In this document: piece by piece, positions 5,715-15,168 of the stretch | Layout: every line of letters starts with the position of its first letter | Numbering within the stretch: position 1 is the stretch's first letter | DNA from: Armatimonadota bacterium | Lineage (GTDB): Bacteria; Armatimonadota; Zipacnadia; Zipacnadales; JABUFB01 | NCBI GenBank assembly: GCA_013314775.1 | Contig: JABUFB010000012.1 | Span: 1 to 64,000, forward strand | DNA: 64,000 nt | Direction: 5' to 3' | Position numbers and translations under genes: made by a program | The notes under the pieces: model-generated | The model's database searches: none | Told to the model about the DNA's origin: nothing | Seen by the model: only the letters and a program-made list of their open reading frames with translations

Positions 5715-7802
5715 TTGCCTGCTTTCAACACAGACCAGATCAGAAACCTTGTCCTGGTGGGACACCGCAGTTCGGGCAAGACGAGTCTTGCTGAAGCCGC
5801 GCTGTTCCTGACAGGTGCTGTGGATCGCCTCGGCTCGACGGACGCCGGGACGGCAACCACGGACTTTGTGCCGGAGGAGAAGGAACGGAACCTCTCCATC
5901 TCCCCAGCACTGTGCTACGTTCAGCACGGCGGCGGGAAGACAAATATCATCGATGCACCCGGCTACGCCGAGTTCTACTCGGAAGTCATCCCGTGCATGT
6001 GGGTCGCGGACACCGCGGTGCTGGTGCTTGACGGTGTCGCCGGTGTCGAGGTCATGTCCCGCAAGGTCTTCGGGAACGCGGTCAACAGCAATCTTCCCGT
6101 GATCGCCGTGGTGAACAAGCTCGACAAGGAGCACTCCAGCTTCTCGGCGGTTGTCGACCAGATGAACGAGAGCCTGCCGGGTTGCCGTGCGGTGCCGGTC
6201 CAGCTTCCCGTGGGCGATCAGGCCAGCTTCAGCGGCGTCATTGATCTGGTGTCGATGAAGGCGTACATCGGCGAGGGCAAAGGGGTTCAACCATCGGCAA
6301 TTCCCTCGGAGCTTGCTGCTGATGCGGAGGCCGCTCGCGCCGCATTGATCGAGGAAGTCGCTGGTACCGACGAGGAACTGATGGAGAAGTTCTTCGAGAA
6401 CGATTCCCTTACGGACGAGGAGCTCATTGGTGGTCTGAAAGCAGCCCTGAACTCGGGATCCCTGGTTCCCGTACTGGCGAGTGCGGCCACCAAGTGCATC
6501 GGCGTTGCGGCGTTCCTCGATTTCGCCCGCAACGTGGTCCCTTCTCCGGCGGAGCGTCCGGCCTGGATAGGTAAGAAGCCGAACAGTGACGAGACCGTGG
6601 AGATCACTGCGGATCCATCCGCGCCGATGCGCGCAGTGGTTTGGAAGACCATGCGGGACCCGTTCGTCGGGCGGCTCTCTCTGGTGCGCGTCCTGTCGGG
6701 TACGCTGAGCAGCGACGGGCAGGCTGTTACGGTTCGCACTGGCAGCCGTGACCGCCTGTCGGGCCTCACGCTGATCCGCGGCAACCAGACCCAGGATGTG
6801 GATCGGGTCGCGGCCGGCGACATGGCGTGTATAGCGAAACTGGAGACGACGCTGACCGGCGACACTCTGTGCGATGCGAATGCCCAGGTCATCGTGGAGA
6901 TGCCGAGTCTGCCCGAGGGGATGCACTCGGCTGCAATGTCCGCTGAGTCCCGCGCTGACGAGGACAAGCTCTCCGGCGCCCTGGCCCAGATTGCCGAGGA
7001 AGATATCGGCTTCACCTATGAGCGCATCGCCGAGACTGGCGAGTTGATCGCCCGGGGGTTCGGTCCGCTGCACCTTCAGATCATCAAGGACCAGCTCCTG
7101 CGCAAGTTCAAGGTCAACGTAACCCTTGGCGCTCCCGAAATCCCGTACCGCGAGACGGCGCGCAAGTCTGTTCGGGTGCAAGGTCGCCACAAGAAGCAGA
7201 CCGGTGGCCGCGGCCAGTTCGGCGACGTGTGGCTGCGGCTCGAGCCTCTACCCCGTGGTGGAGGGTTCGAGTTCGTGGACGAGATCAAAGGCGGGACGGT
7301 TCCGACCCAGTTCATCCCGGCTGTCGAGAAAGGCGTCCGGAGCGCTATGGCGGCCGGCCCGTTGGCGCGGTATCCAGTGGTTGACATCCGCGTGATCCTT
7401 GATGACGGCAGCTCACACCCGGTGGACTCATCAGATATGGCCTTCCAGTTGGCGGGCCAGATCGGGTTCCGCAAGGCCATGGAGGAAGCCGGCCCCACGC
7501 TGCTGGAGCCAGTGGTCATGGTCGAGGTCACCTGCCCTGAGAGCATTATGGGCGATGTCATGAGTGACTTCAGCAGCCGGCGCGGCAGGTTGCAGGGCAC
7601 CGAGGCTGCGGGTGGCGCAATGCAGATCGTCCGGGCTCTGGTTCCGTTGTCGGAGATGTCGACATACTCGTCCGACCTGACTTCGATGTCTCAAGGCCGC
7701 GCGAGCTTCAGCATGGAGTTCTCGCATTACGAGGAAGTGCCGAACCAGGTGCAGGAAGAGATCGTCGCGCGGCGCAAGGTCGCCGAGGCAGCCGACGAGT
7801 AG
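5715..7802 (+). CDS. EF-G-like translation GTPase (EF-G2 type) inserted in the spc cluster
   Basis: A 695-residue protein with the full five-domain EF-G layout. GTPase motifs are visible: G1 GHRSSGKT (residues 16-23), G3 DAPGY (80-84) and G4 NKLDK (134-138). Domain IV shows GGRGQFGDVWLRL and HPVDSSDMAFQ; domain V shows SRRGRLQG. Unlike canonical EF-G the switch I motif RGITI reads RNLSI (58-62), and the catalytic histidine after DTPG is Tyr84, both as in the EF-G2/FusA2 paralogue group. The start is TTG 5715, with GGAGG 10 bp upstream. The location between rpsQ and rplN is highly unusual. A canonical fusA is expected beside tuf outside the window. Whether this protein translocates, recycles or only binds ribosomes cannot be told. 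Confidence 0.93.
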   Translation: MPAFNTDQIRNLVLVGHRSSGKTSLAEAALFLTGAVDRLGSTDAGTATTDFVPEEKERNLSISPALCYVQHGGGKTNIIDAPGYAEFYSEVIPCMWVADTAVLVLDGVAGVEVMSRKVFGNAVNSNLPVIAVVNKLDKEHSSFSAVVDQMNESLPGCRAVPVQLPVGDQASFSGVIDLVSMKAYIGEGKGVQPSAIPSELAADAEAARAALIEEVAGTDEELMEKFFENDSLTDEELIGGLKAALNSGSLVPVLASAATKCIGVAAFLDFARNVVPSPAERPAWIGKKPNSDETVEITADPSAPMRAVVWKTMRDPFVGRLSLVRVLSGTLSSDGQAVTVRTGSRDRLSGLTLIRGNQTQDVDRVAAGDMACIAKLETTLTGDTLCDANAQVIVEMPSLPEGMHSAAMSAESRADEDKLSGALAQIAEEDIGFTYERIAETGELIARGFGPLHLQIIKDQLLRKFKVNVTLGAPEIPYRETARKSVRVQGRHKKQTGGRGQFGDVWLRLEPLPRGGGFEFVDEIKGGTVPTQFIPAVEKGVRSAMAAGPLARYPVVDIRVILDDGSSHPVDSSDMAFQLAGQIGFRKAMEEAGPTLLEPVVMVEVTCPESIMGDVMSDFSSRRGRLQGTEAAGGAMQIVRALVPLSEMSTYSSDLTSMSQGRASFSMEFSHYEEVPNQVQEEIVARRKVAEAADE

Positions 7803-10745: not shown

Positions 10746-11114
10746 GTGAGTACCGAAAGAGATCGCACCAAGAGCCGTATGAAGCGCCATGCGCGTATCA
10801 GGCTGAAGGTAGCCGGCACCGCCGAGCGGCCCCGGCTGTGCGTTACGCGGAGTCTTGACCACACCTACGCCCAGATCATCGACGACCGCGCGGGCCGAAC
10901 GCTGTGTGCGGCGTCCACCCGTGAGGCGGGGGTGAGTGATGAGAACGGGCAGACCGGGAACATCGCTGCCGCTGCGAAGGTAGGGGCGCTGGTGGCCCAG
11001 CGCGCTCTGGAGAAAGGCATCACCTCAGTGGTCTTTGACCGCTCGGGCTGGCCCTATCACGGCCGGATCAAGGCTGTTGCAGAAAGCGCGCGCGAGGCCG
11101 GTCTGAAGTTCTAA
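10746..11114 (+). CDS. rplR: Ribosomal protein L18 (uL18)
   Basis: A 122-residue L18 that binds 5S rRNA. Visible signatures are [19 protein letters not shown] near residues 12-30, HTYAQIIDD, and the C-terminal [23 protein letters not shown] 10746 is the start. The protein is complete to its normal end, REAGLKF. In nearly all bacteria rpsE follows directly; here the next gene, 37 bp downstream, is rpmD, so rpsE has been lost or moved from this junction. Confidence 0.96.
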
Positions 11115-11151
11115 CTGGCGTTCTGGTAGTACAAGCACAGGAGTGGACCTG

Positions 11152-11343
11152 ATGGCTAACGGCAAAGTGAAAGTTACCCTCACAGGCAGCCACTGTGGCT
11201 GCACCCAGCCCCAGCGCGCAACGCTGCGCGCCCTGGGTCTGCGGAAGCGGGATGACTCCCGGGAGCACAACCTCACGCCTGTGGTCAAGGGCATGATCGA
11301 TAAGGTTAAGCACCTGGTAGAGGTCAATCCGATCAGCGAGTAA
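11152..11343 (+). CDS. rpmD: Ribosomal protein L30 (uL30)
   Basis: A 63-residue L30. The diagnostic parts are [35 protein letters not shown] and [16 protein letters not shown]30 is a small 50S protein that is absent from some phyla. ATG 11152 has CAGGAG 7 bp upstream. Upstream rpsE is missing: the space from the rplR stop to this start is only 37 bp and cannot encode S5. Confidence 0.95.
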
Positions 11344-11386: not shown

Positions 11387-11836
11387 ATGGACTATCAGAG
11401 CCTCGACGGAACAAAGCGGAAAGACGGCAAGCGGGTCGGCCGTGGCCACGGCTCGGGGTCCGGCAAGACCAGCGGACGCGGCCAGAAAGGCCAGAAGGCC
11501 CGGACCAATACGGCGCCGGGGTTCCAGGGCGGGCAGAACCCCCTGTACATGCGGCTGCCGACCCTGCGCGGTATCAGCAATAAGTCCCACAATATCGGCA
11601 TCTTCCGCAAGCGGTTCGCCATCGTCAATGTGGCGACGCTGGCCGGCTTCGAGGCGGGTACCGAGGTGACCCCCGAACTCCTGGTGGAGACCGGGGTGGT
11701 CAAGAAGCTGCTGGATGGCCTGAAGATTCTGGGAGAGGGTGAGCTGGACCGCGCCCTCACCGTCAAGGCCAACGCCTTCAGCGCATCGGCCCGTGCAAAG
11801 ATTGAGAAAGCCGGCGGCACCGCCGAGGTGATCTGA
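11387..11836 (+). CDS. rplO: Ribosomal protein L15 (uL15)
   Basis: A 149-residue L15. The glycine- and arginine-rich N-terminal extension [20 protein letters not shown] at residues 18-37 threads through 23S rRNA, and the globular C-terminal half contains [17 protein letters not shown] and [20 protein letters not shown] 11387 follows GGGAGC. It ends 2 bp before secY, the usual arrangement, so secY is probably translationally coupled. Confidence 0.97.
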
Positions 11837-15054: not shown

Positions 15055-15168
15055 ATGAAAGTACATCCGTCCGTGAAGAAGCGTTGTGACAAGTGCAAGA
15101 TCATCCGGCGCCATGGCGTCGTTCGCATCATCTGCGAGAATCCCCGGCACAAGCAGCGCCAGGGCTAA
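15055..15168 (+). CDS. rpmJ: Ribosomal protein L36 (bL36), zinc-binding form
   Basis: A 37-residue protein, [19 protein letters not shown] and onward to KQRQG, found by reading the gap between infA and rpsM. Cys11, Cys14, Cys27 and His32 form the zinc ribbon of the C+ type L36. ATG 15055 follows GAGGAG 8 bp upstream. Length is exactly that of the family. The infA-rpmJ-rpsM order supports the call. Confidence 0.97.

Follow-up and report, generated by a model that had tools for sequence, protein, structure and literature searches.

We propose, with a probability of about 85%, that the gene encoding ribosomal protein S5, rpsE, left the spc operon in the ancestor of Candidatus Zipacnadia and became a single-gene transcription unit elsewhere in the genome, an arrangement that the descendants of this ancestor have inherited. 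The spc operon is among the most conserved bacterial gene strings, and S5 is a stoichiometric component of the ribosome, universal and encoded in a single copy. In the scenario that we favor, rpsE would have been removed from between rplR and rpmD in the class ancestor, with clean closure of the spc junction, and set up at another site under its own signals; later rearrangements would then have carried it as a self-contained unit of promoter, leader, gene, and terminator.

The window, which is the whole stretch of 64,000 nucleotides that was analyzed, contains an otherwise ordinary spc segment with an empty rpsE slot. The final gene ahead of this slot is an intact rplR (L18; 10746..11114, plus strand; PF00861, E 1.3e-43), which ends with a TAA codon at 11114, and the next gene is an intact rpmD (L30; 11152..11343, plus strand; 63.3 bits with Pfam PF00327 and 73.4 bits with NCBIfam rpmD), which starts with an ATG at 11152. 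The 37 bp between them (11115..11151, plus strand), where rpsE would usually be found, contain no rpsE; these coordinates and a PF00333 profile search agree with the sequence-only reading that S5 is missing between an intact L18 and an intact L30. An in-frame GTG is present at 11143, upstream of the L30 ATG. The gene for L15, rplO (11387..11836, plus strand), follows in the normal spc order, and both L14-L24-L5-S14-S8-L6-L18 and L30-L15-secY are ordered as in the canonical operon (L14-L24-L5-S14-S8-L6-L18-S5-L30-L15-secY), with tight spacing. The remaining genes of the S10-spc-alpha region are all present in the window in their usual order, including L36, which the open reading frame list suggested to be absent and which we located at about 15055-15168. 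The sole gene-order change beyond the S5 gap is a gene for an EF-G-like GTPase between S17 and L14 (5715..7802, plus strand), which constitutes a second gene-order character of the class. Unlike the canonical operon, therefore, this segment has an empty S5 slot and an EF-G-like gene before L14, and in some members of family f3 it has lost L30 as well. The EF-G-like gene occupies the S17/L14 position also in the class members for which that stretch was read; several armatimonads outside the class have an EF-G gene at a different place, between L5 and S14. On contig C13 (G000:C13:253-2274) the window genome encodes another EF-G, which shares 40% identity with the first.

A search of the window genome (6.12 Mb in 37 contigs) with the PF00333 profile identified exactly one S5, encoded outside the window on contig C2 by a full-length rpsE (G000:C2:324295-324924, corresponding to L062:8296-8925). 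Its product scores 184.5 bits against the NCBIfam model rpsE_bact (TIGR01021; curated cut-off 164.05) over model positions 2-156 of 156, and both S5 domains, PF00333 and PF03719, exceed their cut-offs. The relocated S5 proteins of the class retain the KTVKGGR loop and the overall S5 motifs. They also have variable acidic C-terminal tails rich in Asp and Glu, which in the window genome read DDDDSDDSDD. Given a single intact rpsE on another contig, the gene has been neither lost nor deleted in assembly; of the two possibilities raised from the sequence alone, a move elsewhere in the genome is borne out, and a clean assembly deletion is ruled against by the contig C2 copy together with the S5-less junctions described below, identical in this respect in 25 of 25 class members. 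Absence from the operon, flanking genes in order, and a copy elsewhere are the features of the "deletion" class of Brandis (2021; PMC8046335).

The same arrangement extends throughout the class. We searched for S5 and L18 in 61 genomes, comprising the window genome and 60 relatives, and in 38 of the 38 class genomes in which both genes were found these lie on separate contigs; in genomes of other classes among the 61, S5 adjoins L18. The class genomes are all drafts, mostly metagenome-assembled genomes (MAGs), and the lack of an S5 match in six and of an L18 match in two of the 46 sampled is consistent with incompleteness. When the class junctions were read as DNA, all 25 (24 genomes and one named MAG) proved to be L18-(L30)-L15 and never to include S5, which answers a comparison of related genomes that had been suggested as a check. 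Outside the class, S5 directly follows L18 in 106 of 106 armatimonads among the matches listed, with the starts of the two matches 227-502 bp apart in these 106 genomes. In a set of named genomes fetched by L18 similarity, S5 is next to L18 in 79 of 80, and the single exception, L128, is a MAG titled Candidatus Zipacnadia bacterium. A tree of seven spc proteins places L128 inside the order of the window genome, within the class; given this nesting, the class formed by the window genome and its relatives with S5-less junctions is most likely Ca. Zipacnadia, a class of Armatimonadota that corresponds to UBA5377 of GTDB (PMC10290634). Because the S5-less junction is found throughout the class and S5 is in place outside it, the relocation marks the class as an old and fixed character. 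The sequence-only reading had foreseen a useful lineage marker, and in this character all 106 other armatimonads among the matches listed do indeed differ from the class; the age of the change and its extent across the whole class, beyond the window genome, were not anticipated. L30 is also gone from the L18-L15 slot in several f3 members and in the named Zipacnadia MAG (loci L086, L041, L043, L045, L047, L049, L054, and L128), where the gaps measure 58-132 bp.

An assembly or binning artefact, in which S5 was deleted or collapsed during assembly, might be entertained given that the genomes are drafts. We consider it extremely improbable, since the same S5-free junction was assembled in 25 genomes, S5 matches in class genomes never exceed one per genome and lie on a different contig, and the S5 copies carry class-specific sequence. 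A more substantial competitor is xenologous replacement, in which a foreign S5, already a single-gene unit, displaced the native rpsE in the class ancestor. The class S5 proteins form one clade (support 100/98) with family splits that approximate those of a concatenated spc tree, apart from a slightly different position of f5. On a fixed species tree, the S5 stem of the class amounts to 0.057 of the outgroup tree length versus 0.007-0.028 for eight spc neighbors, making it 2-8 times longer. Mean S5 identity is 48.5% between the class and other armatimonads versus 57.0% among the latter, and the corresponding drop is almost nil for the neighbors S8, L6, L18, L15, S13, and S11. Both the long stem and the lowered identity would be expected from a foreign gene; however, L14 shows a similar identity drop (in a comparison that rests on only four outgroup genomes), the S5 tree does not place the class S5 inside any sampled phylum, and a tree with all Armatimonadota S5 united is not rejected (p-AU 0.45), although it receives no positive support. 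The long stem is compatible either with a foreign origin or with fast change after the move under relaxed or shifted constraint, and we prefer the latter because no donor group appears; replacement by a foreign gene is in our judgment unlikely. Taken together, the stem length and the identities indicate that S5 changed unusually much around the time of its departure from spc, and under relocation of rpsE the copy now present would be the native gene, moved once.

Several features support the view that the relocated rpsE is a transcription unit of its own. In the window genome it is preceded by a predicted promoter of the sigma-70 type (L062:8211-8239; TTGACA-17-TATCCT, with a TG that extends the -10 box), by a GC-rich leader hairpin, GCCTCCC...GGGAGGC (L062:8247-8268), and by a GGAGG ribosome-binding site, it starts with GTG, and it is followed by a predicted intrinsic terminator (L062:8950-8977, then a T run). 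A scan around this gene returned one promoter (0.1 expected) and one terminator (0.6 expected). Across the class, a sigma-70-like promoter of the form TTGAC(A/C/T)-17/18-TAnnnT, nearly always with an extended -10, lies ahead of a GC-rich hairpin in 30 of 32 loci and in nine of ten families, the two loci without the consensus belonging to f9. Downstream of rpsE, 25 of the 32 loci have a hairpin with T residues that resembles a terminator. Class DNA totaling 546 kb contains only 25 strict matches to the promoter pattern, and rpsE promoters account for 20 of them; the whole window genome has 41 sites that fit the pattern, versus 4 for a reversed control. No such promoter was found in the L18-S5 gap of 13 non-class armatimonads. 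Based on these patterns, transcription of rpsE probably starts at a sigma-70-type promoter of its own, and we infer that the predicted promoter and terminator are functional. Its mRNA would start within a few bases of the hairpin, continue through the ribosome-binding site and the GTG start, and end at the intrinsic terminator; S5 would no longer be co-transcribed with spc and its expression would be independent of the operon.

The hairpin lies about 5-13 nt past the -10 box in most loci (20 nt in f10), at a near-constant distance in nine of ten families. The sequences of its arms differ between families on both sides and pairing is kept: the arms are CCTCCC/GGGAGG in f1, most of f3, and part of f4, CTTCCT/AGGAAG types in f4, CCCCCG/CGGGGG in f6, GCCCGC/GCGGGC in f2, and CGCCGG/CCGGCG in f8. 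These arms were picked for pairing, and when the leaders were aligned with MAFFT the hairpins did not line up by structure; the meaningful control is therefore the rate at random positions in the 546 kb of class DNA, where strict stems of at least six pairs occur at 4.65%, versus 19 of the 25 strict promoter matches. Hairpins follow nearly all of the 20 rpsE promoter matches and only a few of the 30 promoter-pattern sites examined among the 41 in the window genome; this type of hairpin is thus not strictly unique to rpsE, given that a few other strong promoters also precede one. The GCCTCCC/GGGAGGC hairpin itself occurs at four places in the window genome, and just one of these, at rpsE, is behind such a promoter. 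The moved gene is, as judged from sequence patterns, equipped with a conserved promoter and leader hairpin of its own, which had not been anticipated.

We are cautious in assigning a function to this leader. The hairpin could stabilize or regulate the rpsE mRNA, and in this way match S5 output to that of the other ribosomal proteins, and the departure of S5 from spc may have had a regulatory consequence. We lean slightly toward a hairpin that is an mRNA stabilizer or a feature of strong promoters with no regulatory role specific to rpsE, an interpretation that is compatible with relocation; the arms vary in sequence with pairing kept, the leaders are short, hairpins also lie behind a small number of other strong promoters in the window genome, and a cmscan of six loci matched no Rfam leader family, detecting only a tRNA. 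The near-constant spacing from the -10 box in nine of ten families argues against such a generic role, however, as does the observation that the exact combination of promoter and GCCTCCC/GGGAGGC hairpin is present once in the window genome, the other three hairpins being without such a promoter. That the hairpin is a new regulatory leader, evolved when rpsE left spc and mediating feedback by S5 itself or by a partner (S8 or S4, for example), is a tentative idea that we think is probably incorrect. Autogenous leaders of ribosomal proteins are known for S15/rpsO, for L25/rplY, and for S8 on the spc mRNA, which in Escherichia coli places spc under S8 control, and the part of the review on which we draw (PMC10931766) names no autoregulation by S5. 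The Zipacnadia rpsE resembles these systems in having a conserved structured 5' leader ahead of a gene that encodes a ribosomal protein and constitutes a unit by itself; it differs from them in that the leader consists of one short candidate hairpin with no match in Rfam.

Departures of single genes from spc have been described for secY in Bacillus selenitireducens, where no long-distance gene transfer was seen, and for rpmJ and rpsN in Gammaproteobacteria and Bacilli (Brandis 2021, PMC8046335). Given these precedents, we regard the rpsE case as a further event of the same kind, in which a single gene departs, the genes on either side remain together, and its function passes to a copy at another site. 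The known escapes, however, are recent, confined to single species, or replacements by pre-existing paralogs, whereas in Zipacnadia an essential single-copy gene of the 30S subunit appears to have left once, its new state is fixed across about ten families, and a conserved leader accompanies it. The text of Brandis (2021) does not name rpsE, and in our incomplete coverage of the literature we found no published mention of an rpsE relocation in Armatimonadetes. The relocation offers a clean synapomorphy in gene order for Ca. Zipacnadia, a candidate leader with which rewired control of ribosomal proteins could be tested, and, in a class that would express S5 from its own unit, a natural experiment on the need for ribosomal-protein operons in balanced synthesis.

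The genomic surroundings of rpsE vary among families. S5 alone is common to all loci, and no neighboring gene shared by the rpsE loci of all families was found that could indicate the ancestral landing site; some local neighbors are retained within f3, within f6, and within the genus of the window genome. In the window genome, an ISNCY-family insertion sequence (IS) with inverted-repeat ends lies at L062:6755-8194, and its 16-bp flanking repeat, AACGCCGCGGGAAAGG, which resembles a target site duplication, abuts the -35 box of rpsE. We rejected a transposon-borne move of rpsE, since in the sister species G001, which lacks the IS, S5 is flanked by the same genes for a secreted protein and an ABC transporter; the IS is consequently a late insertion. 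In family f6, at about position 6352 (minus strand) of locus L076, a similar IS end with no transposase gene nearby, CCGGACATTATCAC, is located just upstream of the rpsE promoter.
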